Source: Pedosphaera parvula Ellin514 (GTDB taxonomy: Bacteria > Verrucomicrobiota > Verrucomicrobiia > Limisphaerales > Pedosphaeraceae). Taken from it: a stretch of 64,000 nt of DNA. Position 1 is the first letter of the stretch, and every line of letters begins with the position of its first letter. The notes beneath the pieces were generated by a model. The model was given only the letters and a program-made list of their open reading frames with translations, made no database searches and was not told where the DNA came from. Below are positions 26,316-61,571 of this stretch, piece by piece. The DNA is taken from contig NZ_ABOX02000016.1 of NCBI RefSeq assembly GCF_000172555.1, positions 62,001 to 126,000 on the forward strand, written 5' to 3'. A program made the position numbers and the translations under genes.

Positions 26316-27257
26316 TCACTTGGGTGGCGCTGGAACACCGGGAAAGGTTGCATCCGCAGACATGCCCGCGCGCAACTTGTCCTCTTCGTTTTTTAGGCGG
26401 ATCTTCACTCCGAAAACCTGCTTAATGCGTTCCTCCGCGGTTTGCACATTGCGCGGAGTAAATTCTGCAGCTCGATTGATCTGCTCAACTGTCCCTTCAA
26501 AATCTTTTCCTGGGAACGAATCCACGCGCACCTTCACCGCCTCTCCGAGATGGATGTGTCCCAGCCAGGTCTCGGGCACAAAGACTCGCACCCACAGATG
26601 CTGCGGCAAAATCAAAGTGGCCACCTCGCGATTGGCGGCCAACACATCACCCACTTTTACACTGAGCACTTCCATCACGGAGTTCGTGGGAGAGACGATT
26701 TTCATCTCCCGCAACTGCGCGTCGATCTGAGCCAGTTGTGCCCGTGCCTGATCAATCCGCTCCGGACGCGTGCCAGCCAGCAGAAGATCATAACGGCTCT
26801 TCGCCGCCGAGACACTCTTTCGCAAACCGTCCGCGCGAGTCACGGCACGATCCCGCTCGTTAGGCGAAATGGTGTTTTGCTTGAAAAGAATCTCTGCACG
26901 TTTCGCGTCTGCTTCGGCGAATTCGAGGTCTGCCTTCTGTGCCGCCCACTCATTTTTGGCGGTTTCGATTTCCTCCTTCCTCGGCCCCGCCTCCATTTCC
27001 GCCAAAATGGCAGCGACTTCCTTGCCACGCGCCTGGAGTTCAGCAGCATCCAGTTCCATAATTTCCTGTCCGGGTTTTAAAGCATCTCCTTCCTGAACGA
27101 AAATCTTTTCAACTCTCCCTCCATACCGCGAGGCCACGCGCACCTCGTCCACATCAATGGTGCCGGAAACGGCTCGAGAATTGGAATTGCGATTGCAGGA
27201 AGTCGCCAGAAGCCCAAGCGCCATTATCAAAACTCGAAAGTAGAGTCTTTTATCCAC
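26316..27257 (-). CDS. HlyD-family membrane fusion lipoprotein
   Basis: 313 residues. A lipobox (LLATSC, Cys about 21) makes this a likely lipoprotein. A biotinyl/lipoyl-like half (VASRYGGRVEKIFVQEGDALKPGQ) is followed by a coiled-coil hairpin (about 75-180), the second half and a beta-barrel domain (LWVRVFVPETWLGHIHLGEAVKVRVDSFPGK). It links the ABC permease to an outer-membrane channel, which is not encoded here. A MITE-like element ends 48 bp upstream of its start, so its promoter lies in that short gap or in the element. Confidence 0.92.
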   Translation of the reverse strand: MDKRLYFRVLIMALGLLATSCNRNSNSRAVSGTIDVDEVRVASRYGGRVEKIFVQEGDALKPGQEIMELDAAELQARGKEVAAILAEMEAGPRKEEIETAKNEWAAQKADLEFAEADAKRAEILFKQNTISPNERDRAVTRADGLRKSVSAAKSRYDLLLAGTRPERIDQARAQLAQIDAQLREMKIVSPTNSVMEVLSVKVGDVLAANREVATLILPQHLWVRVFVPETWLGHIHLGEAVKVRVDSFPGKDFEGTVEQINRAAEFTPRNVQTAEERIKQVFGVKIRLKNEEDKLRAGMSADATFPGVPAPPK

Positions 27258-27305: not shown

Positions 27306-27760
27306 AAGCCGGACGCATCTCAATGCCACTGCAAGCTGGTGGAAATCACTTGGTTTCACGAATATGCGCAACGCCGAATTGCAACCTCCCCTAATGCTTC
27401 ATGAATTAAGGCACACAACCGGCATGTCTTAGCCGTAACCATGCAGTTGAACAGGAGCAAACAAAGGAACGGAGAGAAAGGAGCGGCGAATAACCGTTTT
27501 TCTCTCCCAATTCGGAGGCGCACTGAATAGTGAGCAGACGGGGGATGGAGCAGAGTTGAATCAAGGCCCTGAAAACACTCCGTTTCCTCTTGTTCACTTC
27601 TCAATCGTTCTGCTTGGACGAATGCTCCATGAATAACGTAAACTACCCGCATTGAAATCGAGCAATGCGGGTAGTTTAAAAATGACGGAATTCCGTGTCG
27701 AGAGAAATTGTGTGGTGGCAAAAATCCTGGAATGCAACCCGTTTGGATGCGTCCGCCTTG
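27306..27760 (+). mobile_element. MITE-like element, long copy (about 455 bp)
   Basis: Terminal inverted repeats are aagccggacgcatctcaatg (27306-27325) and the complement of 27740-27759, 16 of 20 matching. Both ends align with the element at 39675-39946. A perfect 16-bp internal hairpin lies at 27639-27678 with an 8-nt loop. This copy carries roughly 180 bp more in the middle than the other. A possible, imperfect 10-bp target duplication (gggcggaagg and gggcagaatt, 7 of 10) flanks it. No transposase is encoded. Confidence 0.7.
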
Positions 27761-27794
27761 GGGCAGAATTACCTCATGCGAACGCTTCTATCTT

Positions 27795-29723
27795 CTATTT
27801 TATTGCCGGCTCATTGCTGGCGGTTTGCGGTCTGGCTTTATATCGGGAATCGGAATCGACACCCATTACCAGTCTCACCAACCAGGCCACGCCGATCATC
27901 ACTGTCGTGCCAATCAGCGCATACCATGGCCAGAAGATTTCGGGGATATGGAGAGATAACTTCTTTGGATAAGCCTCCAGCAGCAAGGTCCGGTTCAACC
28001 GCGCCAATCCCTTTCCCTCCTGCCCCCGCTCAAGCAACTTGACGGTATCCGGAGACAATTTCACGCTGGCAAACCGTTCGGTGTCATAAATCGATTTACC
28101 TTGAATGACTTGATTTAAATCTGTGACCAAAGCTCTCTGCAATGGTTCATTCGTGCCTCCTTTATATGCCGCTAACATCTCTTTGGTGGCAGGTGAGAGC
28201 TGCGTCTGAAGGAAGGGCGTAACGCCCTCGTTCCTGGCCGGCTCTCGCAACTCGCTTGCAAAAGCTTCCAGGTTGATGTCACCCGCGGAAAGTGCTGGAG
28301 GACGAAAATACTCGTATTTGGGCAACACCTGGATGGCAGTCATAACCAGCAGCGATGCACTCATCCCGACCAGAATCGGCGTGGACCGGCCTTTCTTCCA
28401 AAACACCGCCAGCAACAACCCGCCTAAAAGTGCTCCGCTCGTCAATCCGCGCAATGAGAAGGCCGCATTCAAAACAAAATCCACTTCCCGGCTGATATAT
28501 GCCACCAGAATCAACATGGCCGCCCACGCAATGGTCGAAACCTTGCTGAATGTCAGATAATACGACTCGCTCCGGGATTTTTTCGAAAGTGCTTTTACAA
28601 AATCCATCGTCGAAACTGAGGATAGCGACGTCAGCGCGGAACTGACTGAGGACATCGCGGCTGACAGGATGGCAACAATCAAAAATCCTTTCAGCACGTG
28701 CGGCACTTCCGTCATCATGAAAATCGGGAATACAAAATCGTTCGCCTTGATGCCTGAGCCCGGGCGCGGCTCCGGCAGCGGAATTTGGAAAGGATGGGAT
28801 TGGTAAAAAACCCAGAGCATGGCGCCAGTAAGCAGAAAAATCAGGAAGAGCGGAAATATCACGACGGCGCTTAATGCCAGTGCTTTCCTTCCCTCAGCGA
28901 CGTTCTTGCACGCCAGCACCCGCTGCACGATCAATTGCTCCGCGCCATGAGAAGACATCACCATGACAGTTCCGCCGATAATCCCCATGAAAATATTGAT
29001 GGGTGCACCCAAGGTGAAAGCTGTATTAAGCCAGTGAAGTTTTCCACCGGCCGAGGCTGCGTGGAATACCTCCCCAAAGCCACCCTTGAAATAACTCGGA
29101 ATGAAGCAAAGCGCGAAAATGCCGCCAACCAGGAATAGAAAGAACTGCACGGCATCGGTCCAAATGACGGCCTTGACGCCGCCAATATAGGTGTAGAGCA
29201 ACGACAAAAGCACAAAGAGCAGAATAGCCCCAAGAATCGGATCACCGGTCATGAAACCCAGCACCCTGTCACCCAACATCAACTTGATTGGAATACAGGC
29301 AACATATACCCGAACCCCGGCGGCCAGTGTTTCGCTGAGCAGAAAAAAACCACCGGCCATTTGTCTCACAGAAGGGCCGAATGCGTTGGAGAATAATTGA
29401 TATGGGGAATAAATCTCTCCCTTGAAATAATGCGGCACCATTACAACCGCTAAAATGATTCGGGCAATGACATACCCTACAATCATTTGCAGAAATGCCA
29501 TATCGGTGCCATAGGCCATCGCCGGCACGCCAATGATGGTCAGCGCACTCGTCTCGGCGGCCACGATCGAAAGCCCAATGCCCCACCAGGGAATGTTCCG
29601 GCTACCCAGGAAATAATCGCGCGTATTCTTCTGGTCCCTGCCGAACCAGACGCCGAGCAGAATGATGCCGCCGAGGTAGATGAAAATCACCAGCCAATCA
29701 GCGAAATTAAAATATCCATTCAT
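27795..29723 (-). CDS. Sodium:solute symporter (SSS family)
   Basis: 642 residues from the ATG at 29723 (MNGYFNFADWLVIFIYLGG); the reading from 29762 adds 13 residues without hydrophobic start character. There are about 13-14 TM helices with the SSS core (WWGIGLSIVAAETSALTIIGVPA near residue 45, and GGVKAVIWTDAVQFF). An extra soluble insert of about 110 residues (about 500-610) sits before the last TM helix (WPWYALIGTTVMIGVAWLV). SSS proteins import sugars, amino acids or sialic acid with sodium; the substrate is not readable. Confidence 0.92.
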   Translation of the reverse strand: MNGYFNFADWLVIFIYLGGIILLGVWFGRDQKNTRDYFLGSRNIPWWGIGLSIVAAETSALTIIGVPAMAYGTDMAFLQMIVGYVIARIILAVVMVPHYFKGEIYSPYQLFSNAFGPSVRQMAGGFFLLSETLAAGVRVYVACIPIKLMLGDRVLGFMTGDPILGAILLFVLLSLLYTYIGGVKAVIWTDAVQFFLFLVGGIFALCFIPSYFKGGFGEVFHAASAGGKLHWLNTAFTLGAPINIFMGIIGGTVMVMSSHGAEQLIVQRVLACKNVAEGRKALALSAVVIFPLFLIFLLTGAMLWVFYQSHPFQIPLPEPRPGSGIKANDFVFPIFMMTEVPHVLKGFLIVAILSAAMSSVSSALTSLSSVSTMDFVKALSKKSRSESYYLTFSKVSTIAWAAMLILVAYISREVDFVLNAAFSLRGLTSGALLGGLLLAVFWKKGRSTPILVGMSASLLVMTAIQVLPKYEYFRPPALSAGDINLEAFASELREPARNEGVTPFLQTQLSPATKEMLAAYKGGTNEPLQRALVTDLNQVIQGKSIYDTERFASVKLSPDTVKLLERGQEGKGLARLNRTLLLEAYPKKLSLHIPEIFWPWYALIGTTVMIGVAWLVRLVMGVDSDSRYKARPQTASNEPAIK

Positions 29724-29846
29724 GGAATTAGAACGTTCATTACTGGAGCAGATATGACTCAATAGCGAGAAAAAAGTTCATGCTTTGGGCAGGGCATTTA
29801 TTACATGTACGTGCCATGAGCGCGGCTGGCGACTGCTGGTAGCTGG

Positions 29847-30605
29847 TTAACCCTTCCAGAGTGTCCAGGTGATTTCGTCCCAAAGGGCTTCCTTGCGTGG
29901 ATACGCCGTAACCTCGCCTTCATTGTTCCACATCCAAGTTGCGCCTTGATTCAGCCTGGCTTGGGGGGCGAGGTTTGCCAACTCGCGCAACAACAAACAT
30001 AAGTTATTGGTATCATCTGCCACTTTGCGCTCTCCCAGGCAGGCGTAATTGAAATCATCCGCCGCGATTTGAAATCTGGCGGCTCCTCCGTTCAAAACGA
30101 TCTCCAATCGCAACGACCACTCGGATGTTTCCCGTGAGGAATACTCAAACTTTTTCTCCTTCGTGCGAATCGGAATCATGAGACCGGGAATGGTCCTCAT
30201 TTTCTCCACCTCCCATTCCTTTCGCGTCCGTTGAATGGTAGATTCCTTCACCATACCCGCAGCCAACATGGCTATTTGGCTCCAATCATTTGGCACTTTC
30301 CGCCCCAAAGGATCAAACAGGATCATGGCTTGAGGCGTGAGTTCCATCTGCTTGATTAGCTTTGGCAGTGGGAGAGCCGGCAATTGCCTTTCCTCAACGA
30401 TATCTGTTTCGATACTTTCTCCAAGCAGCGCCCGATTTAAGTTCTTCGCTTCCTCCAGGTCCAGGCTTCTCAGCAGAATACCAAATGCCTTGCTGGCAAT
30501 TATGGGAGCATCCGCAGCCGAAATCCTCTTCTGCCCCACAAATGCACGCCGCAGTTTCTCGACATCGATGGGTTCAAGATTTTTTTGGAGCAGAGCGTAT
30601 GGCAT
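29847..30605 (-). CDS. Unknown protein, tandem paralogue B
   Basis: 252 residues. The N-terminal about 70 residues (MPYALLQKNLEPIDVEKLRRAF, then KAFGILLRSLDLEEAKNLNRALL and IVEERQLPALP) align with the protein encoded just upstream at 30609-31400. The domain has an alpha/beta pattern in which a residue pair is acquired, then the helix EEAxxLNxAL, then a strand TxIVEE. The C-terminal part is mixed, ending in EVTAYPRKEALWDEITWTLWK, again shared with the paralogue. It starts 4 bp after the stop of the paralogue. No function is known to me. Confidence 0.75.
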   Translation of the reverse strand: MPYALLQKNLEPIDVEKLRRAFVGQKRISAADAPIIASKAFGILLRSLDLEEAKNLNRALLGESIETDIVEERQLPALPLPKLIKQMELTPQAMILFDPLGRKVPNDWSQIAMLAAGMVKESTIQRTRKEWEVEKMRTIPGLMIPIRTKEKKFEYSSRETSEWSLRLEIVLNGGAARFQIAADDFNYACLGERKVADDTNNLCLLLRELANLAPQARLNQGATWMWNNEGEVTAYPRKEALWDEITWTLWKG

Positions 30606-30608
30606 GGG

Positions 30609-31400
30609 TTAATAGCCGGGAGGCTGTTTTTGTGAAAGTTTCCAAAGCAGCCAGATAATCTCTTCGTAAAAAGCATTTTTACTTGGATAGAAGAATGGTT
30701 GAGCCGCCCGTTCGCGAAAGTAATACGTGCCACGATTTACTGCGGCGTGAGGGGCGAAGCTTGCAAGGTCCTGAATCAACAGTGTGAAGTTCGCTTGCAG
30801 GTCTCTGGTTTTCCGCTCTCCAAGATATCTGAAAAGCAAATGCGCTGACTTGCCCGCGTCGATACCATAACGCGATATTCCTCCCTCCAAAATGATTTCC
30901 AACAAGAGATGATGCTGCCGTTCCTCCCGGGTTTCATATTCTGTGTTGGTTCGAGGTTGATATTCGTACTCCCTCCCAAAGTTAGCGGGATCGAAAGGGG
31001 AAGCGGGTGTTTCGACCCGAATCTTATTAAATTCAATCAATGGAACTTTGCCAGCAGCAATCAGAACGACACTTTGCCAATCCACCTGAACAGGCCGATT
31101 AAGTGAATCATACACAACCAGTTGTTCCGGAGTACAATCCACAAAGGTTGTGTTGGGGCCTGGTGGCAGCGTCGGGAGCATGGATTCCTCCACAACTTCC
31201 GTCTCAACTCCCTGCGCTTGGAGGGCTTGGTTAAGTCGGTTCGCATTTTCGAGGGTAAATCCTTTGACCAGAATTCCAAAAGCGTCATTACCTACGGTCT
31301 GAGCATCAATAGCAGTCAAACCGGGAACATTCCTGAACGCCGCCTTGAGCCGCTCAATGGCTGGCGCTTCCAAATCCTTTTGTACAACCGCGTAAGGCAT
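30609..31400 (-). CDS. Unknown protein, tandem paralogue A
   Basis: 263 residues from the ATG at 31400 (MPYAVVQKDLEAPAIERLKAAF), chosen because it aligns with the paralogue's start; a reading from 31418 is possible. It shares FGILVKGFTLENANRLNQAL, VVEESMLPTLP and a C-terminal YPSKNAFYEEIIWLLWKL with the 29847-30605 protein. It looks cytoplasmic with no TM segment. The pair arose by tandem duplication and is surely one operon. Confidence 0.75.
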   Translation of the reverse strand: MPYAVVQKDLEAPAIERLKAAFRNVPGLTAIDAQTVGNDAFGILVKGFTLENANRLNQALQAQGVETEVVEESMLPTLPPGPNTTFVDCTPEQLVVYDSLNRPVQVDWQSVVLIAAGKVPLIEFNKIRVETPASPFDPANFGREYEYQPRTNTEYETREERQHHLLLEIILEGGISRYGIDAGKSAHLLFRYLGERKTRDLQANFTLLIQDLASFAPHAAVNRGTYYFRERAAQPFFYPSKNAFYEEIIWLLWKLSQKQPPGY

Positions 31401-31478
31401 AAAAATTCGGCCGCTCACCAGAATTCCAGTAAACGGCCGATAAAAGCAATGCTTTACCGCCTGAATTTCCGCGACTGA

Positions 31479-32756
31479 CTATTTCCCAAGCATCTCGCGC
31501 AACACACCGCCGAGGCGTTCGATGCCGAGCTGAATGTTTTGCTCGGTCCCGCCACCGAAGCTGATGCGCATGGCGTTCTCCGGTTTGCGACGGGTCGGGT
31601 CATTCGCGTAGCACAGTTCGCCGGGAACGTACAGGACGTCCTTCGCCAAGGCTTTTTGGAACAGCTTGGATTTTACACCCGTCTTTAGAGCTTGCGGCAC
31701 GCGCGCCCAATAATAAAGACCTCCCAGGGGTTCCCACCATTGTACCTCGGCGGGAAAATATTGCTTCATCGCTACGAGCATTCCCTTGGCCTTCTTCGCA
31801 TATCGTTTCTGCAGGGCGGTCAGGTGCTCTTCATATCTGCCGGAAGAGAGCGCCTTCACTAGCAACTGTTGCAACAGGTTCGAGGTGCCGAAATCATGGT
31901 TGCCCTTGATGCGAATCACCGCCGTGTAAACGGGATCTGGTAAAATGCCGAATCCCACTCGTGTCCCTGTTGCAAAAGGTTTGCTATAGGTTCCGGCGTA
32001 GATGACGCGGTTCGCAAAACCCTTGGCAGACAATGCCGACTTCACATCCTCCCCTTTGAAGCGCAGCTCGCGATATGCCGCGTCCTCGAGCAGGAAAATG
32101 GGATGCCCGGCAGCTTTCTCATATTTCCGCAGCAACTTCAACGCGCCCACCTTCTTCTCATAGCTGGTCGTCACGCCACTCGGGTTTTGGAAGTAACTCA
32201 CGAGGTAAAGCATTTTCAAGCGCTTGATCTCGCCGCTCTTTTTGAGTGATTCGAGCACCTGCTCCAAATGTTCCAGGCTCAAACCATCCTCTTCAATTCT
32301 TACACCGCGTCCTTTAATGCCGCGGCTTTGCAGGATGCCGAGATAGACGAAGTAAGTGGGGTCTTCCACGATCACCACATCGCCTTCGTCACACATGGCT
32401 TCCGTGACCATGTACAACATCTGTTGTGAGCCGTTAGTAATGATCATCCGGTCGGCGGAATAAGCTTGTCCGTGTCCAGCACACCATCCAGCAAACGAAA
32501 GTCCTGGGCGGTGAGTTCACGCAGCATCGGGTCTCCGGGCGGTGGTCCCGTACTGCAACGCGGCCTGACCGGTCTTCCGGTTTTTCAAAATTTCATTCAG
32601 CAGGTCGCGGGCGTCATTGACCGGCAACGATTCGTTATCGGTAAAACCTGCGGCCAGGGAGATGAGCTGCGGTCGCGAAAGCGCTACTTCCATCAACCAG
32701 GAAATGGCAGGTGCTTCGGAACGCTGGCCCAGCTTCGACAGTACAGAGTGTTTCAT
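31479..32756 (-). pseudogene. PLP-dependent class I/II aminotransferase with two compensating frameshifts
   Basis: The 3' three-quarters (from MIITNGSQQMLY at 32447) reads cleanly with EDPTYFVYLGIL, SYFQNPSGVTTS and the PLP-lysine segment YAGTYSKPFATGTRVGF. The 5' part lies in the ORF from 32756 (MKHSVLSKLGQRSEAPAISW...ALQYGTTA). Dropping one C near 32538 continues it as GDPMLRELTAQDFRLLDGVLDTDK, and adding one base near 32462 joins it to YSADRMIITNG. Corrected length is 425 residues, normal for 2-aminoadipate/MocR-like aminotransferases. Substrate is not determined. The indels look like sequence errors, but as given the gene is broken. Confidence 0.85.
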
Positions 32757-32805
32757 ACAAGGTGGCGGTTACCTTACGGAATCCGCCCCCTTTTCGGCCA
32801 TCCTT

Positions 32806-33600
32806 TTATTTGGCCGTTGCGAAGGGCTGAACTTGCACCGCTTCGACCATTAGCAGGAACCGCTTGATGCCTTCAGCACAGCGGTCATGGTCGGACTTGA
32901 GGGAATAACCATGGTCGCCATTGATTTCCCAAAACATCTTGGGTTCATTGGCGGCCTCGAAGTTTTTTTCGGAATGACGGAAGCGCACCAGGCCGTCATC
33001 ACGGCTATGCATGACCAACACCGGGACATGGATGAGTGGCAACTTGCTCAAGGTGTTGTATTTGATCGTGCCCAGCCAACGGACGGGAATCCACGGAAAC
33101 AACTCGGCACCGACATCTGGAATGCTGGTGAAAGTACTTTGGAGAATTAATCCACCCACCTGTTCACGGATGGCCAGTTCACTGGCAATGCCGCCGCCCA
33201 ATGATTCTCCGTAGGAAAGAATATGCCCGGCAGCGAAGCCGTTCTTCTGCAGCCATTGATGCGCCGCCTGAGCATCCAGGTAGGTTCCCTCCTCGGTCGG
33301 CACCCCCTGACTTCGCCCGTATCCCCGGTAGTCAAACAGCATTACGCTGACTCCAAGCTGCAAGAGGGTTCGGCAGAGATCCAGACGATGACTCAGATTG
33401 CCGCCATTCCCATGGCATACCAACATGACCATGTCGCTTCTTTTGGCATTCGGATCGGCCGGAAAAAACCAACCGTTCAACAGCAGCCCATCCTCGGTGG
33501 CGAAATAAATGTCCTGGAAAGGACGGCCAAGTTCCGTGCCATCAGCGATGAACTCGCTGTCCGGACGATAAACCTGTCCATATTCAAATTTGCGTATCAT
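32806..33600 (-). CDS. Alpha/beta hydrolase (BEM46-like)
   Basis: 264 residues. The fold is seen in VMLVCHGNGGNLSHR (oxyanion region), MLFDYRGYGRSQG, the nucleophile Ser in SYGESLGGGIA, the Asp in HSRDDGLV and the His in NGDHGYS. No signal peptide is obvious. The family hydrolyses esters or peptides of many kinds; the substrate is unknown. It is 49 bp upstream of the aminotransferase on the same strand. Confidence 0.9.
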   Translation of the reverse strand: MIRKFEYGQVYRPDSEFIADGTELGRPFQDIYFATEDGLLLNGWFFPADPNAKRSDMVMLVCHGNGGNLSHRLDLCRTLLQLGVSVMLFDYRGYGRSQGVPTEEGTYLDAQAAHQWLQKNGFAAGHILSYGESLGGGIASELAIREQVGGLILQSTFTSIPDVGAELFPWIPVRWLGTIKYNTLSKLPLIHVPVLVMHSRDDGLVRFRHSEKNFEAANEPKMFWEINGDHGYSLKSDHDRCAEGIKRFLLMVEAVQVQPFATAK

Positions 33601-33793
33601 GCGACACTGAGGGTTGCGAGCAATTACTCGAACCGTCCTAAAGGTTTACCTAATCTAAATAAAATAGCACTTGGTGTCTAATCCCCATTGAGAGATGTTC
33701 CGCACCTGCCTTGTTTGGTTTCTCTCATTCAGATTTTTAGTTGCACGTGCTTTGCCCTTGCCAGTTCTCCGCAACGGGAGATAAAAGAAAGCC

Positions 33794-33988
33794 ATGTCGG
33801 CTGAACCAGACAACGCAGCCAAACCAGAGGAGCAGGCTTCCACTGAAGCTTGTCCCATCGCGTCCGGTGATGTTAGCGGCGAGCACTGGCGCTGGTGCCC
33901 CCGGTGCAGTCACGAATTGCACAATGAAAAATGCAAGCTCCGCTGTCCGCGTTGTCATTACTTCATGAGCTGTTCGGATTTTGACTGA
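33794..33988 (+). CDS. Small double-CxxC zinc-ribbon protein
   Basis: 64 residues. An acidic, Ala/Glu-rich N-terminus precedes a zinc ribbon, WCPRCSHELHNEKCKLRCPRCHY, with two CPRC knuckles. It ends in CSDFD. GGGAG lies upstream of the ATG. Small ribbons of this kind are common in Verrucomicrobia and Planctomycetes, with nucleic-acid or protein binding roles only guessed. Confidence 0.75.
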   Translation: MSAEPDNAAKPEEQASTEACPIASGDVSGEHWRWCPRCSHELHNEKCKLRCPRCHYFMSCSDFD

Positions 33989-34025
33989 CTGGCTTGGAAT
34001 TAGTTTCACAGCCATTAATCCTCCC

Positions 34026-34679
34026 CTACTTGCCCTCGGCAACTTTCGTAACCATCAAATTGTCGAACTGAATTGGCGTAGTGGCATAAGGTTGACCCCA
34101 GATGGAAGCGCGACCGGCGGATGGCTCCTTCTTTTCATCGTAGGAAATCAGCGCCTTCGCGGGTTCGCTACTGCCTTTGGTCCAGGCCTTGCCTTCCACC
34201 TTCCAAACACCGTCACCAGCTTTGACCACCTGCAGTTTTAGCAAGGTCCACTCGCCCGATTTCCATTCATAGGGCACGTGGGCGACAACCTCGTCGCTTT
34301 TGTATAATTCCAACTCGCCCTTGCCGGGGGAAATTTGCAGCTTGTATCCGCCCTGTCCATTCGAACCCACCGCAAAGGTGGGAAAGCGACGGCCCTTTTT
34401 GGTTCCATCGATGCTTGCGGATACGGCGATATTTTCCTTAACGGCTGGGCCGAATAAAACCCCGAAGGTATCCAGTGGCGCACCGGGTAGTTCGAGAAAT
34501 TTGTTCCCGCCCTCTTCCTTCACGGCAAAAGCGCCATCGAGAACCATGAGACCATCCGGAACTTTGCCGATTTCCGCGCTTTCAAAATTATTTTCGAAAA
34601 GCGGCTTGACCTCTTCCGCCATTGCCCCTTGCAACGCCAGCAGCATTGCGCCTAAAAATATCCAGTTCGCTTTTTTCAT
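34026..34679 (-). CDS. Secreted beta-sandwich protein, unknown role
   Basis: 217 residues from the ATG at 34679, whose signal peptide (MKKANWIFLGAMLLALQGAMAE) is clear; the longer reading to 34760 overlaps the next gene. The mature part resembles the LamG/3-keto-disaccharide hydrolase-like fold (FENNFESAEIGKVPDG, YKLQISPGKGELELYKSDEVV, WTLLKLQVV, IQFDNLMVTKV). Such domains bind or cleave sugars in verrucomicrobial exported proteins. It starts 14 bp after the stop of the permease gene. Confidence 0.75.
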   Translation of the reverse strand: MKKANWIFLGAMLLALQGAMAEEVKPLFENNFESAEIGKVPDGLMVLDGAFAVKEEGGNKFLELPGAPLDTFGVLFGPAVKENIAVSASIDGTKKGRRFPTFAVGSNGQGGYKLQISPGKGELELYKSDEVVAHVPYEWKSGEWTLLKLQVVKAGDGVWKVEGKAWTKGSSEPAKALISYDEKKEPSAGRASIWGQPYATTPIQFDNLMVTKVAEGK

Positions 34680-34693
34680 TCGCTTTCTGATTC

Positions 34694-37600
34694 TTATTCG
34701 TTTCTCAACGCATCCAACAGCCGGCCGCGTAGAGCAAAGCGTGTTGCCAGCCAGGTCCAAACCAATCCATTCAACGTCACCGCCGCGAGCATAAGCGCCA
34801 ACGACTTATAAGGTATTTGCGATCCCGGTGAAAGCAAGGCCGGCATCACCCCAATCGCTGCGGCAATGATTCCAACTGCCAGGCCCAGGATCAGCAAAGC
34901 GGCATGCTCCTTGAGCACCAACCGTTGCAACACAACCCTGCGAAATCCCACCGCCATGAGCAATCCCAATTCACCCCGGCGTTCCTGCACGTTACGCAGG
35001 ACCACCACTCCCAAGCCGGCACTCCCGAGGAGCAATCCCAACCCACCTAAAATCTGAAATGTGCTCAAATATGTATTCTGCACCGCGTTAAATTCGTTCA
35101 ATCGCTGCGTGGCCGGTGTCAGTTCCAATCCGGCATCCTGCAAGGCACGCCCCAGCGAGGCCGAAACCCTTTGTACACTATTTGACGAAGCATCGATCAG
35201 GAACATTCGATACCCGCTCTCACTCGGAAACCGTTTTACAAACTCAGCTTCGTCAATAATCAGGTTACCCTGCAACACAGAGTTGGCGAGCGACCCCACC
35301 AGCCGCAACTTGAAAGTGACACCGCGCTCGTCGGTGTAATCGAGCGTGTCACCCACTTTCTTCTGCAATGCATAAACAATCGAGTTCTCATCTCCGACTG
35401 CCGCGACTTCATCTTCTTTAAGCAACGCCGGGCTGGAACTTGATTTCAACACCATCCACGGCTTCTCTTCCGACAAGCCTTTTAGCACCTTCGCAAAGGT
35501 AAAGGCCTGTCGCTTTTGCAACGCCTCGGGATTAACTCCCAAGACCCTCGGCTTTTGTGCGCGATTCAGATTGAGACAACTGGCGTCATCGCCGTTCCGC
35601 ACGCGAAATGAAACTACCTCCACTCCTTGAAGATCGCTTGAGTTCAGTCCATAGAAATCGCGGCCAGCCTGGCTGTTCAAATCATAAGTGATGGGCAGGG
35701 TGGAATCGCCAATCAAAGCAAACCCGCCCGTACCGGAAGACCGCTTGCTGGCATCCTGATTTGCATCCAGCCGGAACGCGCTGATCGACGCGATCAGAAA
35801 CGCTCCGCAGGCCAGCAACCCGATCGTAGCCAGGCTTCGTTTCCGTCGCCGCGTGCTGCTGCGCAACGCCAGTCCGTTCATGCTGAGTTGCGAGCCGTAG
35901 GATTTGCTCCCTAACGCTCCCAGCCAGGCCGCACAGAAGCCCAGTCCAGCAATGAGCAACAACGCTCCAGCACTAAAAAACGTTTCAGCCGATGAAGTGT
36001 CATGTTTGGCGATGGCGTAGCCGACCGAGCTGAGAGCCAGGAGTGCGGCAATCCCTCCGACCCATATTCCCCGACTGCGCTTGCCGGTCCCAGAGCTTGC
36101 CTTGAGCATGCGTTCCTCTGCGCCTTCAGAAAGGAGTTCGCGCGCCGGTCGACGCCCTTGCTTGCGCAGCGAAAACCAGATCGTCAAACTTGCGACAATC
36201 GTGCTGGCAAAAATTCCAGTAACCAGACTCTCCGCGCTGATGTGAAACTGCAACGTTGAGTTTCCGACGGCACTGCGCCACACAGTGGTCAATCCATAAA
36301 GCATCCCTTTGGCATAAAGAATTCCCCCTACCGCGCCGACGACCCCACCGATAAATGCCAGCATCACTCCTTCTCCGAGTAACAGCCTTCTCACCTGCGC
36401 CGGACGAAACCCAACCGCCAGCAACGTGCCAACTTCCGTCGCCCGTTGTTCCAAACCAAACTGGAACAGCAGCGCCATCAACAAAAGCGCCGCTACAATT
36501 ACGAAAAAGCTCAGGCCAATGAATAATCCCCCGATATCCATCGATTGTGAACTGGCAGCCAACGCCTGTTCGCGCACCGGCTGAATCGCCAGTCCCACCT
36601 TGTCGGGATCCAGATTATCAAGGATCTTTTTGCTCAGGCTTTGAACTGATTCACCAGCCTGGGGAGACCGAACCGCGGTGAAATCACCGAATCGATTCGC
36701 CCACATCTTCTGACCTGCCGCCAAGGTCACGAACGCCTTTGGCGTGCCGCGATAATCTTTCCAATATTTCTCATCCTTGTCGCGAATTCTATTGAGCTGG
36801 ATTGGAAATCCCGCGTCCCAATCCTTTTCACTCTCTGCCTTGGCCAGGCCCGGAAAATCAGGCATCAAATTACGATCTGCCGCCGCGCCTGCGAGCGGCA
36901 CGACACTTTTCACGGTGAAAATATTCGTGCGTTCTTCCAGGGCGCGACCGTTTCCAACGACGAAATATTTCAGCGTCAGTTTGTCTCCCGGTTTTGCCTG
37001 CAAATCATCGGCGAGCCATTGGTTGATGATGATTTCGTCCTCCTTCATTTCAGCAGGGACAATCGGCGAACCCATCGCCGTCACCATTGAATAAGGCGTG
37101 GCATGATCGCCCACACGCAGTTCATTGACGAAATAGGTGATGAGCGGCCTGGCATTCGCGTCCGCTTTGCGCGCCGCTTCAACTGCTGCGGGATCGAGAA
37201 AAACACGGTCAGTGTGCAGTTCCAGCACACCGGTCGCCGGAACAGGCCGCAAGTCCAGTTCGGCATCCGCCAATTGCCAGTGCGTGCGCAGAGCGTCTTG
37301 CACTCTAATCGCCGAAGGCGTTGGTTCTTTTTGAATATCCGAAACCAACAGCAGATTGGCCCGTCCTTTCTGATCAATTCTCTCCTCCAGCATGTTGCGA
37401 TTGACGAACGCATTGAACGGTGCGACTTGATTCGCCTGCAAACTGAACCTTCCAAACTGCTGGTCGGTCACGACGTCTGCCACTTTCAACCGCAACGCCA
37501 CCGAGAAATCCTCCTGCGGCGTAATGGGCGCATCGCGCGAGAGCAGGCTCGGCTTTTGAATGCGCAACAAAACTGTGTCGCCAACCTTGGCTTTGAGTTG

Positions 37601-38023
37601 GGATGCCAGTGGTTGATTCAGCACCACTGCGTCCTTTGGAATTTCCGCAATGCCAGGCGATTGATTCGCCAGGTCCCAAAATCCTGCATCGACCCCGAGT
37701 ATCTGCACCTGATTGGCGCGGGCAGAAGCATCTTGAGAGGAAACCGTCCCCGGCAATTGCAACACTGCCGCTGACCGGCTTTTTTCGCTGGGATGAATTT
37801 GATTCGCCAACTCCGCCCGAAAGAATCTGTCTCCGGCTGCGATCGCATGATCCACCCGGCCCAATCGCAACAGACCCAATTCGTGCAAGCTCTCCTTCAC
37901 CGAGTCACCGACCACCAACGCTCCCACCAAAGCCGCGCTGCCCACCGCCGCACCGATGATGACCCCCAGATGCGCGCGGGCGTGAAAACGCAGGCTCCGA
38001 AAAATAAGTTTCCAGAAGGTCAT
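34694..38023 (-). CDS. FtsX/MacB-type ABC permease
   Basis: 1109 residues. An N-terminal TM (about 16-40, ARAHLGVIIGAAVGSAALVGALVVGDSV) and a large periplasmic domain (about 45-510) precede FtsX segments at about 520-640 (LLAVGFRPAQVRRLLLGEGVM) and 695-795. A second periplasmic part leads to the C-terminal FtsX unit (about 985-1105, GLLMAVGFRRVVLQRLVLKEHAALL). This is a double FtsX permease like LolC/E fusions. Its ATG overlaps the ATPase stop by 4 bp. It probably moves lipoproteins or other envelope molecules by mechanotransmission. Confidence 0.92.
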   Translation of the reverse strand: MTFWKLIFRSLRFHARAHLGVIIGAAVGSAALVGALVVGDSVKESLHELGLLRLGRVDHAIAAGDRFFRAELANQIHPSEKSRSAAVLQLPGTVSSQDASARANQVQILGVDAGFWDLANQSPGIAEIPKDAVVLNQPLASQLKAKVGDTVLLRIQKPSLLSRDAPITPQEDFSVALRLKVADVVTDQQFGRFSLQANQVAPFNAFVNRNMLEERIDQKGRANLLLVSDIQKEPTPSAIRVQDALRTHWQLADAELDLRPVPATGVLELHTDRVFLDPAAVEAARKADANARPLITYFVNELRVGDHATPYSMVTAMGSPIVPAEMKEDEIIINQWLADDLQAKPGDKLTLKYFVVGNGRALEERTNIFTVKSVVPLAGAAADRNLMPDFPGLAKAESEKDWDAGFPIQLNRIRDKDEKYWKDYRGTPKAFVTLAAGQKMWANRFGDFTAVRSPQAGESVQSLSKKILDNLDPDKVGLAIQPVREQALAASSQSMDIGGLFIGLSFFVIVAALLLMALLFQFGLEQRATEVGTLLAVGFRPAQVRRLLLGEGVMLAFIGGVVGAVGGILYAKGMLYGLTTVWRSAVGNSTLQFHISAESLVTGIFASTIVASLTIWFSLRKQGRRPARELLSEGAEERMLKASSGTGKRSRGIWVGGIAALLALSSVGYAIAKHDTSSAETFFSAGALLLIAGLGFCAAWLGALGSKSYGSQLSMNGLALRSSTRRRKRSLATIGLLACGAFLIASISAFRLDANQDASKRSSGTGGFALIGDSTLPITYDLNSQAGRDFYGLNSSDLQGVEVVSFRVRNGDDASCLNLNRAQKPRVLGVNPEALQKRQAFTFAKVLKGLSEEKPWMVLKSSSSPALLKEDEVAAVGDENSIVYALQKKVGDTLDYTDERGVTFKLRLVGSLANSVLQGNLIIDEAEFVKRFPSESGYRMFLIDASSNSVQRVSASLGRALQDAGLELTPATQRLNEFNAVQNTYLSTFQILGGLGLLLGSAGLGVVVLRNVQERRGELGLLMAVGFRRVVLQRLVLKEHAALLILGLAVGIIAAAIGVMPALLSPGSQIPYKSLALMLAAVTLNGLVWTWLATRFALRGRLLDALRNE

Positions 38024-38715
38024 GTTGCCTGAGTCAGCCGGCCATCATTCAATTCCAAAACCCGGCCCATTTTGTGAGCCAGATCCAGCGCATGAGTGAC
38101 CACGATCAACGTGACCCCCTCTTCGCGATTCAGTTCCAGCAGCAGCGTCGCCAATTCCTGCGCGGAAGCACGGTCCAAAGAGCCGGTAGGCTCATCTGCC
38201 AAAAGAAGCTGCGGCTGATTGATCAGTGCCCGCACCACCGCAGTGCGCTGGCGCTCGCCTCCCGAAAGCTGCCCCGGACGATGATGCGTCCGGTCTCCAA
38301 GTCCAACTCTCTTCAAAAGTCTCTGCGCACGCTCCGGAGCTTTTTCCCGCGAATCGCTTTTGCCACCTGGCAATGTTGGCACGAGCACATTTTCCAAAAC
38401 GGTGCATTGCGGCAGGAGATAATGTGCCTGGAAGATAAAACCGATCCGGTTATTCCTCACCGATGCCAGTTGCACGTCATTCAACTGGCTCAAATCCTCT
38501 CCCGCAAGCGCCACCAGTCCGCTCGCCGGTCGATCCAATGTTCCGATGACATTCAGCAACGTGCTTTTCCCCGAACCCGAAGGGCCGATGATCGCGAGCG
38601 ATTCACCTCCCTTGACCTCCAACGAGACTCCTTTCAAGACTTCAACCGGGCCTGCACCCGAGTCATAGCGCAAAGTCACATCCGATAATTTTAAAAGTGT
38701 TTCCGGTGCTGCCAT
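38020..38715 (-). CDS. LolD/MacB-type ABC ATPase
   Basis: 231 residues from the ATG at 38715; the in-frame extension to 38796 has a poor start character. Walker A GPSGSGKST, signature LSGGERQRTAVVRALI, Walker B LLLADEPTGSLD and the H-loop TH are complete. LolD-type features include the GFIFQAHYLLPQCTVLENVLVP segment. It forms a transporter with the permease encoded directly downstream. Confidence 0.93.
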   Translation of the reverse strand: MAAPETLLKLSDVTLRYDSGAGPVEVLKGVSLEVKGGESLAIIGPSGSGKSTLLNVIGTLDRPASGLVALAGEDLSQLNDVQLASVRNNRIGFIFQAHYLLPQCTVLENVLVPTLPGGKSDSREKAPERAQRLLKRVGLGDRTHHRPGQLSGGERQRTAVVRALINQPQLLLADEPTGSLDRASAQELATLLLELNREEGVTLIVVTHALDLAHKMGRVLELNDGRLTQAT

Positions 38716-38832
38716 GTTCAAATCCGTATTCTTTATTTTGACGTTTGGCTCAAAATTAACTTCACCATCACTTCTCTGAAGTTCCACGTGGAGCAAATGA
38801 GCTCACTCATCCAGCAGAAATTCTTTGGCTGG

Positions 38833-39621
38833 CTACCCACGCCGCATCGCTCTGGCCAATGCCGCCACCCGCTTCGCATCCACCGGATTCGCCAGCTTGC
38901 CGCCCCTCTTCAATGACGAGCCGACGATAAATCCATCAGCCAGTTGAAGAAAATCCCCAGCGTTCTCCAGCGTCACACCGCTCCCGAGCAGAATTTTCGC
39001 TTCCGGACACGCCGCCCGCACGCGCCGCAGATCATCCAAGTTCACCGCCACGCCTGTGCCGGTGCCGGAAACGATCAACGCATCTGCCAACCCGCGTTCA
39101 ATGGTATCCTTCGCAGAGTCTTCAATCGTCCAACTGCCCAATGGCACCGCATGCTTCACATGCACATCCGCAAAAACCTGCGTTCCGGGACTGATTGCCT
39201 CACGATAACGCATCGTGTCGTAAGCATTTCCTTCAATCAAGCCCTGGTCGGTAAGCATCGCGCCGGTATGCACATTCACGCGTACGAAACTGCCGCCACA
39301 CGCTGCGCACAATCCCAAAGCAGCGCGTGCATCATTGCGCAGAACATTAAAACCAATCGGCAGTTTCACTGCCGCCCGCACCGCACAACCGAGCGCCGCC
39401 ATCGCCGCCACGGTCTCAGGCCCGACCGCCGACTTGGTGAAGGGAACGTCTCCAAAATTTTCGATGAAAACCGCATCCGCTCCGCCCTGCTCATAACTGC
39501 GCGCATCCGCGACCGCTTTTCTGGCAACCGCCCCGATGTCACCCTGCCACCGCGGCGCGCCGGGTAATGGTCCCAGGTGAACTACTCCGATAAGCACCTT
39601 GCGACGAGAATTGAAAAGCAT
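38833..39621 (-). CDS. BtpA/SgcQ-family protein
   Basis: 262 residues from the ATG at 39621. The N-terminus GVVHLGPLPGAPRWQGD and the tracts GGADAVFIENFGDVPF and NVLRNDARAALGLCAACGGSFVRVNVHTGAMLTDQG are hallmarks of BtpA-family barrels. IVSGTGTGVAVNLDDLRRVRAACPEAKILLGSGVTLENA is also typical. The family was named after a cyanobacterial photosystem I assembly factor, but most members outside phototrophs have unknown roles. A MITE-like element lies 53 bp upstream of the start. Confidence 0.88.
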   Translation of the reverse strand: MLFNSRRKVLIGVVHLGPLPGAPRWQGDIGAVARKAVADARSYEQGGADAVFIENFGDVPFTKSAVGPETVAAMAALGCAVRAAVKLPIGFNVLRNDARAALGLCAACGGSFVRVNVHTGAMLTDQGLIEGNAYDTMRYREAISPGTQVFADVHVKHAVPLGSWTIEDSAKDTIERGLADALIVSGTGTGVAVNLDDLRRVRAACPEAKILLGSGVTLENAGDFLQLADGFIVGSSLKRGGKLANPVDAKRVAALARAMRRG

Positions 39622-39674
39622 CACTGTTTGTCTCTGATTTTTACCGGCGCGGCAAGTCCACTTCACCGGTTGTC

Positions 39675-39946
39675 TAGGGCGGACGCATCTTAATGCCGCT
39701 GCAATCCGGCGTAAAAACACTAGGTTTGCGAATGCCGCAACTCCGAAATCCTGCCATGGCTAATGCGTCACCAATAGAAACTGCCCTGGACCAATTAAAT
39801 AATCGAACTGGCATGACGCACAATAAAATACCCTTATTGAGAGCGGGCAATAAGGGTATTTTAGAAATGGTTGAACTCTGTGTCGAGAGAAAAGGTATGA
39901 CAGCAAACATTCTGAGGGGAGAACCCATTTAGATGCGTCCGCCCTG
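39675..39946 (+). mobile_element. MITE-like element, short copy (272 bp) with 10-bp target duplication
   Basis: Terminal inverted repeats are agggcggacgcatcttaatg (39676-39695) and the complement of 39926-39945, 19 of 20 matching. A perfect direct repeat accggttgtc flanks it (39665-39674 and 39947-39956), a target site duplication. A perfect 15-bp hairpin lies inside (39825-39839 with 39848-39862, loop 8 nt). Ends and hairpin align with the longer copy at 27306-27760. No transposase is inside, so it must move through an enzyme encoded elsewhere. Confidence 0.85.
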
Positions 39947-40042
39947 ACCGGTTGTCCACTTTAGCGTTACTGGGCGCGGCAGCTGAGTAACTTTTAGGTT
40001 AAGGAGCGCGGGTTAATTACCTGCACAGATGATGCAGATTGC

Positions 40043-43975: not shown

Positions 43976-44089
43976 TCGTATCCCTCGTCGCACGAGCTTG
44001 TTAGATAAGCATCTTACGCAAAGATGTAACATCTTTATTACACAAAAGACTAATTGATTACGTCGCCAAAGTATGAAACTTTTGGGGAT

Positions 44090-47000
44090 ATGCCCAATTC
44101 TTTTCTGGTCCGTAATGTCAGGATGCGCATACGCTGCCTGGTTATCATGGCGGGGCTTTGGTTTGTCCTGGCAATTTCCTCGCCAGCCCAGGAATTTCGG
44201 GCCGCGTGGGCTGACGTCTTTCACGTCGGCATGGGCAGCCAGACGGAAGTGAACAACATGGTTGCGACCTTGGTTTCCGGTCACTACAACGCGGTCATAG
44301 TTCAGGTGGTCGGGTACATGGATGGGATCGGCGTCAATTCGCATGGCGCCCACTGGAAATCGAACATTCTACCTTGGTCGCCTCGCGTTACCGCCGGCTT
44401 TGATCCGCTAGCGGCTCTCTGCGCGCAGGCGCACGCAAACGGCATTGAAGTTCACGCCTGGCTTGGTGGCAGCGCCGGCGCGATGTATCGCGTTTCCACC
44501 GCTTGGCCGCCCGCCGGAAACGCGACATTGACTGCTCACCCTGAGTGGTTCATTGCGCCCCTGGCGAATAGCGAAGGCGGTGCTCCCGTGCTTGTGGACG
44601 GTAATTACGATCTGGATATGGGCTCTCCCGATGCGCAGGAATACATCGTCAGCATCGTGCGCGAACTGGTGACCAACTATCCGATCGATGGCATCAACTG
44701 GGACGATGAGCTTAACAACGCGGGCTACGCAGCAGGCTTTGGGTATCCCGCTCTCAGCCAGACCAATTATCCGAACTCAGGCCTGGGCCGTTATCGAAGA
44801 AATACCGGTTATGTCGGCACCCCGCCCAATACTGACACCGCCTGGTCCAACTATCGCCGCCGCTTCAAGAACGAATTAATGGCCCGCGTTCAGGCTGAGA
44901 TACAATCCATCAAAACCAATCCCCGCCAGCCATTGCGTCACACCTCGGCGGCGCTCGCCTACAGCCCGTATCCGACTTCCTGCACCTTCGCTGGGTTGGT
45001 CCCTTACACCTATTTCTGTGATTGGGCTGGCATGCTGCAAAACGGTTGGCTGGATGCCGTGATTCCCCAAACCTACAGCCTCGGCACATTTACTAACTGG
45101 GCCAACTTTAGCGCTTCGTGCTGGCAATATAACCGGCAGATCTTCCCTGGTATCGGCGCCTATCTCAACACCAATGCCTCCATTGCCAATATGATCGGTT
45201 ACACCCGCAGCATTGGACTCAAAGGCAACGCGATTTATTCCTATGGCGTGCCCCATACTAATTTTGTCCCCGCCGAGAGTGACTGGTGGGCCTATGCTGC
45301 CGCGAATGTTTATACCAATATCGTCTCCACTCCCCCCATGCCCTGGCGGAATCCTGCCACTGCCACCGAAGGAATCGTGTGGGGACGCGTCAAAGATAAC
45401 AACACCGGCCTCTATGTGGACGATGCCACGGTGACGGTGGCCGGCGGGCCTACTGTGAAGACAGACGGCAACGGCTATTACATCGCCACGCTGGTTCCTG
45501 CCACGGCAGGCGGCACGGCGCATTCAGTGACCGCCAGCAAAACTGGAAACGTTCTGCAGACGACCAATGCCATCGCTTTGGCTGGGGACATAGTCCGCTA
45601 CGATCTACTGCTCAATATAGTTCCCAGGCCGGCTGCACCGAGTGGTTTGACCGCAACGGCTCTGAGCATTTCGCAGATTAAACTTACCTGGACCGACAAT
45701 GCGACCAACGAAACCGGTTTTGTCGTCGCACGCGGCACGGCTTCCGGCGGCCCCTACACGGACATCGCCACACTCGCGCCCAACTCCGTTGTATATACGA
45801 ACAATGGCCTAACCAGTGCCACGACGTACTATTACGTTGTGCGCGCTACGAATGCCGTTGGTGCATCCACCAATTCAGCCCAGGCCAGCGCCAGCACCTT
45901 CGTGAATCCTTTCCCGGCGATTACCGGCCAGCCGCAAAACCAGACCGTCGTCATAAGCAACAGTGCCACTTTCTCGGTAACGGCATCTGGTGCGGCTCCG
46001 CTCAGTTATCAATGGCGTTTCAATGGCATTGCAATTTCCGGTGCCAACTCCAGCAGCTTGACCTTAAACTCCGCTCAATATTCCAACGGAGGAAATTATT
46101 CCGTGACGGTGAGCAACACTCTTGGTTCTGTGTTGAGCTCCAACGCTACGCTGACCGTGCTGACCGCACGACCCACGATCCAACTCACGAACATCTGGAA
46201 CATCCAGGCCGGTTCGCGCACTTACGTGACTTCCGGCAACACCGAGCGGGGCATCTGTATCAATCCGCTCACCGGCCACGTGTTGCTCGTTAGCCGCTCG
46301 GCGCAAATTTCCGGCGCCCTCGGAGTATTTGTACTTGATGGCAATACCGGAGCGCAGGTTGGCACCATGAACTTAACGGGTGTCAGCAGCTCCGCCACGT
46401 TTGTGCTGAACAAAATTGATGCCGCAGCTGATGGTGTGATTTACGGTGGCAATCTCACTACTGCGAGCGGCACGTCACCCTTCATCATTTATCGTTGGTC
46501 CAGTGAAGGAACGGCTCCCACAGTCGCTTATTCCGGCGCTCCCGACAGCGGAACAACGGCCCGTTGGGGCGACAGCTTTTCCGTCACGGGGGCAGGTGTG
46601 AACACGCGGATTGTGGTTTCCGGTTCCAGTGCGACGAACGCGGTTTTGTTCACCACCAGCGACGGCACAAATTTTATCGCAACCGTGATCAATCCGGCTG
46701 CCCCGGTGGCGGCGGGTGAATTTTCACGAGGCCTGCACCTGCTTGGGACCAACACGTTTTACACCAAGAACCCCGGCTTCAATGCGTGTAAACCTTATAA
46801 CTATAATGTTGCTGCCAACAGCGCTTCGACGAGCAGCGACATTGCGCCGCTGGATACGAGCATGCTCGCTATTTCCGTAGTCACGAATTACAGCCTGATC
46901 GCCGGCGTTGTCGACGACAACAGCATCAATACCTCCGGGCATAGCGTGAAAGTTTACGACATCTCAGCGCCGGCTTCGCCAGTGGTTGTTTCGAATTTTA

Positions 47001-55069: not shown

Positions 55070-55386
55070 ATTCACTCTTCTTTTTTTCTTCTTCTCTTTT
55101 TTCTTTTTCACTCACGCTTCTGCCAGTCTTCCCTTACCGGCAAAAGCGCGAAAAATTACCTTTGGAGTGCATCACTTTGAGACACTATTTATTTACAACT
55201 GTCTCGTTTGTACCGAAACCGGACAAACTCACTTTTCCTCTGCACTCAGCGACGGTTTTTCCAATTGTTGATTGAGCAAATTCCAAGCCATTTGCATTGC
55301 TGTACACCTACATGAAAATGCCGATCGGTGGCGTCAAGTCGCTCGACATTTTTCCCGTCGCCCAAGTTCCGTTATAAAAAGTTGGA
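55070..55386. other. 317-bp intergenic region upstream of both a giant gene and a dus remnant
   Basis: It contains a purine-rich tract on the minus strand (55075-55110) that serves as the giant's leader. A segment (about 55270-55320) matches the equivalent gap at 61440-61500, for example cacctacatgaa. No other gene is supported. It was copied along with its neighbours. Confidence 0.55.
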
Positions 55387-61255: not shown

Positions 61256-61571
61256 ATAAAACTCGCTTTCTTTTACAAAACTCGTGCCCAGCCAGTTTTC
61301 ACCCGTCCGCAGATCAAAGCGACTCGACTCTTCGAGTGTCTCGTTTTGCCACACTTGACCTAGGGTGGATTACAGTCATACTCAATTGCATCAACAAGCC
61401 GGTCAATCGCATCCACTTAAGCACCGAAAAAGCTGCTTTCTGCTTTCTTGTTCTGATTAGCAATTTCCACGCCATCGGAATTCCGGCACACCTACATGAA
61501 CATGACAGTCTGGGGGTAACCAGTTGCTTACGCTCTTCCCGTTGCTGCGAGTTCTGCTATACTAGGCCGAA
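61256..61571. other. 316-bp divergent promoter region of the giant gene and dus
   Basis: No further gene is supported. It must hold the promoters for both divergent genes. A tgctatact stretch about 15 bp before the dus start could serve as a -10 element. Part is duplicated at 55270-55386. Confidence 0.45.

Follow-up and report, generated by a model that had tools for sequence, protein, structure and literature searches.

The window analyzed here is a 64-kb stretch of the Pedosphaera parvula Ellin514 genome (bases 62001-126000 of contig 16; genome of 7.41 Mb in 102 contigs) that contains two copies of MITE-1, a miniature inverted-repeat transposable element (MITE) in which a perfect hairpin lies at a putative promoter. 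Copy 1 (27306-27760, plus strand) has recognizable ends of the type found in ISAs1-family insertion sequences (IS), the left at 27306-27320 and the right at 27745-27759, an interior ~180 bp longer than that of copy 2, and no clean target-site duplication. Copy 2 (39675-39946, plus strand) is full length at 272 bp, too short for a transposase gene, its 15-bp ends (39676-39690 and 39931-39945) being perfect, and is flanked on the left (39665-39674) and on the right (39947-39956) by the perfect 10-bp target-site duplication ACCGGTTGTC. The putative promoter of copy 1 faces a gene for an HlyD-type membrane-fusion protein (26316-27257, minus strand), after which come ABC ATPase and permease genes, and that of copy 2 faces a BtpA-family gene (38833-39720, minus strand), whose listed open reading frame (ORF) enters the element, the true start probably lying further in. 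Genes for an SSF symporter and RNase III are located behind the two promoters.

Both hairpins are read on the minus strand. That of copy 1 (27639-27678, TAAACTACCCGCATTG-8-CAATGCGGGTAGTTTA) has arms at 27639-27654 and 27663-27678, and that of copy 2 (39824-39863, TAAAATACCCTTATTG-8-CAATAAGGGTATTTTA) has arms at 39824-39839 and 39848-39863; in each, the arms form 16 bp of 100% complementarity with 8 nt between them. They ranked top of the 16 inverted repeats in the 64 kb (arms of at least 12 nt, no more than 40 apart), and the single-strand DNA folds of the two whole elements were better than those of shuffled sequences (z of -6.7 and -4.0, respectively). An earlier reading of the window (the original prediction) had described perfect hairpins of at least 15 bp with an 8-nt loop in both copies, which was confirmed at 16 bp each; the coordinates that it gave for copy 2, 39825-39862, locate the right hairpin and fall one base short at either end. 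The three stem differences between the copies, all of which it had called compensated, are indeed each matched by the opposite arm within the 15 bp compared.

With copy 2 as a query, blastn returned 28 matching stretches in the genome, and a covariance model returned 33 matches, made up of 16 complete copies with the hairpin, a second hit on the opposite strand for each of these 16 palindromes, and a single fragment (loci, contigs, and genomes are denoted L, C, and G below, G000 being the window genome). The original prediction had named such a collection of copies as its own test; further copies exist, and their stems are without many uncompensated mismatches (46 modules, 690 pair cells, 4 mismatched and 3 G-U). 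The ends of MITE-1 are AGGGCGGACGCATCT and its inverse, and 15-bp terminal repeats with at most three mismatches were present at both ends in 8 of the 16 copies, at one end in 6, and at neither in 2. Perfect target duplications of 9 to 11 bp flank L001, L009, L012, and L020, and one of 11 bp with a single mismatch flanks L008; duplications in the other 11 copies are weak or missing, all of these counts being made without a chance control. The MITE-like nature of the family is thus borne out by its copies, terminal repeats, and target duplications, and MITE-1 is a non-autonomous MITE devoid of a transposase.

An ISAs1-family IS of 1231 bp at G000:C8 has a 10-bp duplication and the ends CAGGGCAAACGCATCA and CAGGGCAGACGCATCA, which differ from those of copy 2 at 3 and 2 of 15 bases, respectively, and its 381-aa transposase scored 424.7 bits against the ISAs1 model NF033564 (cut-off 70, E of 2e-127). 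Two ISAs1 transposase matches were found in the window genome, and the covariance-model scan of that genome gave no hairpin or module match in the 1231-bp element. Given the terminal repeats, the 9- to 11-bp duplications, and the presence in the genome of an IS with similar ends and a transposase, MITE-1 was most likely moved by an ISAs1-family transposase. The interiors of four MITE-1 copies are longer or split (window positions 27397-27638, L006/L012 on C42, L011/L021 on C8, and L013/L016 on C18), with gaps of 237, 343, 836, and 338 bases between the matching stretches, and the extra DNA sits just past the foot of the hairpin, on the side toward which the putative promoter points. The match of one copy, L007 (G000:C1:241823-241993), stops in the hairpin loop. 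A small protein encoded by MITE-1 was considered and set aside; minus-strand ORFs of 84 to 121 aa overlap several copies, but that of copy 2 spans the putative promoter.

The original prediction had assigned the hairpin to the element and suggested that it was needed for movement or for a host effect. On sequence comparison, however, the conserved unit is a promoter-hairpin module of ~80 bp and not the MITE-1 element, as the module recurs without the MITE-1 ends in relatives and inside an element with other ends. A comparison of 23 modules from outside MITE-1, each with 250 bp on either side, listed 33 alignments of more than 60 bp, of which 32 fell on the module (61 to 99 bp in 31 of them and 127 bp in one) and the remaining one, of 85 bp, lay off it. 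In G007, a genome of the same genus, the module was found at 16 loci, one of them (L179) truncated by a contig end, and at none of the 16 did inverted repeats on the two sides, sought within 450 bp, score higher than 11, compared to scores of 17.5 and 12.5 for the window copies. Three of these loci (L169, L171, and L173) have 99 to 127 bp in common, so that some of the G007 modules may sit within a further repeat. In G005, one module copy lies between 31-bp inverted repeats starting CTAAGTGAAGTTAGG and is probably part of an element of its own. In G242, which belongs to another family (f42), the module is carried inside an element of ~410 to 430 bp with the ends GGTTCYYCGCTGTTTYC and perfect 8- to 9-bp duplications in four copies, and ends similar by eye to these surround a shorter copy in G271.

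Exact matches to the module pattern in the named genome collection amounted to 9 stretches, all of them in two Pedosphaera metagenome-assembled genomes, RYN_629 and RYN_620. At E of 1e-4, module matches were obtained in 9 of 320 genomes of the order and in 2 of 387 genomes sampled from the phylum, namely, the window genome and G416, these counts being lower bounds, since the filters score few candidates per genome. The match in G416, a genome from a different family within the phylum, has a loop of 4 nt and was set aside as probably unrelated. An occurrence in viruses was likewise rejected; the core palindrome was found in two viral contigs, which, as judged by eye, represent the same locus on opposite strands and do not have the promoter arrangement. 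The genes next to the modules hardly ever recur from one genome to another (78 proteins from six genomes yielded a single cross-genome pair), which suggests that the places occupied by the module turn over. At L156 (G214:C27:34190-34283 and 34584-34677), two modules in direct orientation lie ~400 bp apart, each with promoter-like hexamers and with the same stem and different loops, and at L157 (G214:C99:1-130) the module lies next to tandemly repeated units of the ACCCACCCCTCAA type at the contig end.

The module is read on the strand opposite to the one considered in the original prediction, and its order is ATTTCTC, a -35-like hexamer TYGMCA, 16 to 18 nt, a -10-like hexamer TANNNT, the hairpin, and a T-rich sequence. 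In copy 1, the -35-like hexamer TCGACA (27696-27701, minus strand), with the conserved ATTTCTC just before it, is separated by a 17-nt spacer from the -10-like hexamer TAAACT (27673-27678, minus strand), which lies within the first hairpin arm and predicts a start near 27666. In copy 2, TCGACA (39881-39886, minus strand) is followed at the same 17-nt distance by TAAAAT (39858-39863, minus strand), again within the first arm, with a start predicted near 39851. A promoter scan gave one site in copy 1 and two in copy 2, compared to 0.3 expected, and flagged the module sites in both.

Throughout the family to which the window copies belong, the -10 box forms the outer part of the first arm and is mostly TAAACT or TAAAAT, with TAACCT, TACACT, and TATACT also occurring. 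In f42 and in L158, L161, L162, and L180, the hairpin begins 0 to 2 nt past the -10 box, and the distance between the -35 and -10 boxes is unchanged. In all 18 modules in which the hairpin lies clear of the -10 box (L157 being re-read for this test), a TANNNT hexamer was present 16 to 18 nt from the -35 box, an outcome for which shuffled linkers gave an expectation of 1 to 22% per module; of these 18, nine (six from G242 and three from G271) are close copies of two elements and do not count as independent events. Two more non-overlapping modules, L154 and L156b, agree when re-read on the corrected strand (7% and 12% expected). The spacer measures 17 nt in 39 of 52 modules, 16 nt in 7, 18 nt in 5, and 15 nt in 1, in a tally with an optimized fit and three mis-assigned rows, which takes L157 with a misplaced -10 box and L154 and L156b as read on the incorrect strand. 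The strongest argument for a promoter is that the hairpin slides between families against a fixed pair of hexamers, and the module very probably represents a sigma-70-type promoter.

The covariation of the stem was analyzed in alignment sets A1 (15 of the 16 G000 copies, without L013), A3 (15 modules), and A4 (28 of the 52 modules), and in a set of 46 of the 52 modules from which L011, L177, L178, and L181 (best-scoring loop other than 8 nt) and L154 and L156b were left out. Among 28 modules, 11 of the 15 stem pairs change on both sides, with 62 cells altered on two sides, 1 on one side, and 1 unpaired; 99.8% of the cells are paired, none of 500 shuffles was as high on any measure, and pairings slid along the arm were 31 to 42% paired. 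On a tree of the 46 modules, changes fell on both sides of a pair in 40 branches and on a single side in 13, compared to 2 to 7 and 70 to 73 for pairings slid by 1 to 3, and on a tree built without the hairpin the figures are 48 and 14, compared to 2 to 13 and 73 to 88 in the slid controls; the 46-module tree was built on ~90 columns, and the events are parsimony counts. Within the window genome, the covariation consists essentially of two subfamily alleles and one variant, and for that reason the independent events there are few. The stem core CC..ATT is invariant in 27 or 28 of the 28 modules, and the loop is 8 nt long in 48 of 52 modules, a count that includes L154 and L156b as scanned on the wrong strand. 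The loops had been said to differ freely; across genomes, however, a single consensus with a direction, about AAATCGGG, fits 45 of 46 loops better than the reverse complement of that consensus does.

The original prediction took the compensated changes as the mark of selection on structure. The covariation itself stands, and as proof of selection it is weakened, because template switching during DNA replication can produce paired changes in one step. Stepwise compensation in an RNA is expected to leave more G-U or mismatched cells than the 3 and 4 seen in 690. One base is missing from both arms together in L160, L164, and L177, and likewise from the core in L178. In the MITE-1 copy L008 (G000:C48:30612-30882), the loop agrees with the family pattern only when reverse-complemented, that is, as a spacer inversion (log-likelihood ratio of -12.9, the other 45 being positive). 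The available text of two reports (PMC8794818, PMC8604942) describes both compensatory changes and inversions of the loop or spacer as products of a single template-switching event. The scarcity of G-U pairs, the matched deletions, and the inverted loop thus suggest that template switching helps to make the symmetry of the stem. Carried to its end, this would mean that the stem is kept perfect by template switching, that its pairing has no function, and that only the promoter is selected. We consider so neutral an origin unlikely, since it would not preserve the CC..ATT core, the 8-nt spacing, the orientation of the loop, or the place of the stem at the -10 box and start in different families; these same constancies indicate selection on the hairpin.

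It is about an even call whether the module is a portable promoter whose hairpin stops read-through transcripts and spares its own, spread in an ISAs1-type MITE. A transcript arriving from the upstream gene would carry both arms, fold the full hairpin beside the T-run, and terminate, and one started at the module would be without 5 to 12 of the 15 pairs at the foot of the stem and would escape into the gene ahead. A MITE-1 insertion would in this way install an insulated promoter, the symmetry of which would arise through template switching at replication and be maintained by selection. The element, the module, the promoter geometry, the covariation, and the oriented loop are visible in the sequence itself, and promoter activity, the start site, termination, and a benefit to the host are all predicted from it. 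A tentative suggestion, on the doubtful side, is that a single sequence would serve as the promoter of the gene ahead and as a self-sparing terminator of the gene behind, with the start inside the first arm, and that miniature transposons of more than one kind would have spread this cassette, the host keeping it after their ends decayed.

Transcript folds, with the start assumed ~7 nt past the -10 box, were computed for 49 modules (without L181, L154, and L156b). In 48 of them, the self-started transcript loses 5 to 12 of the 15 pairs, the exception being L157 with its mis-assigned -10 box, and the mean fold was -23.0 kcal/mol for the read-through RNA versus -8.8 kcal/mol for the self-started RNA, which is also shorter. 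T-runs were counted without L179, L181, L154, and L156b; a run of at least 4 at the stem foot was present in 17 of 21 modules of the window's family outside MITE-1, versus 6 of 21 on the other strand, and in 0 of 1 in G149. An earlier count over a different interval had given 33 of 52 versus 13 of 52. Between co-directional genes, modules of the window's family are oriented with the genes in 20 cases and against them in 7 (P = 0.019), and MITE-1 copies in 8 cases and 1 case. L005 was classed automatically as convergent; with its reassignment by hand, as a 137-aa ORF faces the module, the ratios become 21:7 (P = 0.013) and 9:1 (P = 0.021), respectively. L154 is divergent in this test, a class unaffected by the strand correction.

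Several results weigh against a promoter with a self-sparing terminator. The promoter scan of the window copies was little above chance, one of the two sites in copy 2 being another site than that of the module, and in nearly all modules of the window's family the -35 hexamer departs from TTGACA at one position. A T-run is found in only 5 of the 16 MITE-1 copies (0 of 16 on the other strand), T-runs in f42 are alike on both strands (8 of 11 versus 6 of 11), and terminator-like sites in the window copies numbered 1 versus 0.8 expected and 0 versus 0.2. Self-started transcripts of f42 still fold at -15.5 to -19.2 kcal/mol, which makes their escape doubtful. The orientation bias is moderate, is absent in G242 (1 with and 3 against, by automatic gene calls), and weakens to 21 with and 10 against when f42 is added. 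Finally, a terminator needs neither 15 perfect Watson-Crick pairs nor a constant loop length, and a constraint other than termination may therefore act on the hairpin. Any terminator role would be weak in the window copies.

Genes ahead of the modules were scanned at 13 loci (12 in G007 and 1 in G006); two gave no match, and the matches include glcF-like, rex, thiH, ccsB-like, mfd, an extracytoplasmic function (ECF) sigma factor, LOG-type, and a NuoA-type subunit. Gene types as varied as rex, the ECF sigma factor, mfd, thiH, and ccsB-like would suit a regulon in which the 15-8-15 dyad, centered at about +8 to +14 of the predicted start, binds a dimeric regulator, and the constant spacing in 48 of 52 modules, the conserved half-site core CCNNATTG, and the position of the dyad over the predicted start fit such an operator. 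It is nevertheless improbable, as protein contacts alone do not demand that the arms change together at variable positions (62 cells on two sides and 1 on one side), the distance of the dyad from the -10 box varies from family to family, no regulator was found (no search for one being made), and the neighboring genes are hardly common between genomes.

A small RNA or 5' leader with the hairpin as a structured RNA would account for the strong covariation and for promoter-like hexamers directly upstream, yet most modules of the window's family have the -10 box within the first arm, which would leave the transcript with an incomplete stem, and with almost no G-U pairs and no Rfam match at the module this reading is very unlikely. 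Least likely of all is an action of the hairpin in transposition as folded single-stranded DNA in the manner of REP/RAYT or IS200/IS605, which the perfect stem, fixed loop length, dispersed copies, and good DNA fold of the element would fit, since the terminal repeats, 9- to 11-bp duplications, and candidate DDE helper of MITE-1 require no hairpin inside the element, none is present in the candidate ISAs1 element, the G007 modules are without flanking inverted repeats above the score named, and the REP tag GTAG is not conserved.

Among known systems, Rfam gave no match in the window at gathering score and none to the module itself when 5 loci were scanned with E values up to 1. The 15-8-15 layout resembles lox and FRT; a core site for a tyrosine recombinase was rejected on account of the co-varying arms and the oriented loop consensus, with no search for an integrase being made. 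REP/RAYT palindromes are likewise dispersed intergenic hairpins, from which the module differs in its longer perfect stem, fixed 8-nt loop, attached promoter, and want of a conserved GTAG; this tag is confined to TAAACT alleles, where it falls within the stem, and is missing from the TAAAAT and f42 alleles, and the REP/RAYT identity was rejected on these grounds with no search for a RAYT gene being made. The ISAs1-family IS resembles MITE-1 in its ends and 10-bp duplication and differs in encoding the 381-aa transposase and in not carrying the module. IS10 and IS50 are protected from impinging transcription by a comparable arrangement, in which transcripts from outside hold both arms and fold, blocking translation of the transposase, and those started inside are without the first arm and active. 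The inside/outside logic of the module is alike, but it would terminate transcription, and no transposase gene is present here.

Prokaryotic MITEs that carry promoters are known, the closest being Correia elements of Neisseria, with MITEAba12, BrickBuilt, and QMITE1 as further cases, in the available part of one survey (PMC10969869). As described there, Correia elements are, like MITE-1, short and non-autonomous with a sigma-70-like promoter, and lie mostly immediately upstream of genes; they are set apart by their description from the present case, in which the promoter overlaps a perfect covarying hairpin and the module also occurs alone and in an element with other ends. The same source describes SPRITE of Streptococcus pneumoniae, like the module a dispersed repeat with a sequence resembling a rho-independent terminator, and differing in its host and in that the passage available describes no overlapping promoter (PMC10969869). 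In the accessible portions of the literature on mobile promoters, overlapping terminators, Pedosphaera, ISAs1, MITEs, quasipalindromes, Correia elements, and impinging transcription, no description of a promoter fused to a covarying hairpin was found, such absence being no proof. Promoters in MITEs and terminator-like repeats are thus already known, and the fusion of a promoter with a covarying hairpin appears to be new.

Elsewhere in the window, three long ORFs at 44054-47341 (plus strand, 1095 aa), 48653-55111 (minus strand, 2152 aa), and 56315-61354 (minus strand, 1679 aa) had no NCBIfam match. In G004, a match to the Acido-Lenti-1 RNA at L158:1507-1552 (minus strand) scored 30.2 bits, below the gathering score of 37, at ~3.5 kb from the module.

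The set of modules is a compact system in which template switching and selection may be told apart as sources of compensatory changes, since both leave their marks in the same 46 modules. It also provides a direct test of whether bacteria use terminators that spare the transcripts of their own promoter. That the promoter-hairpin occurs both alone and within elements that differ in their ends suggests that it is a portable control part able to rewire the genomes of soil bacteria.

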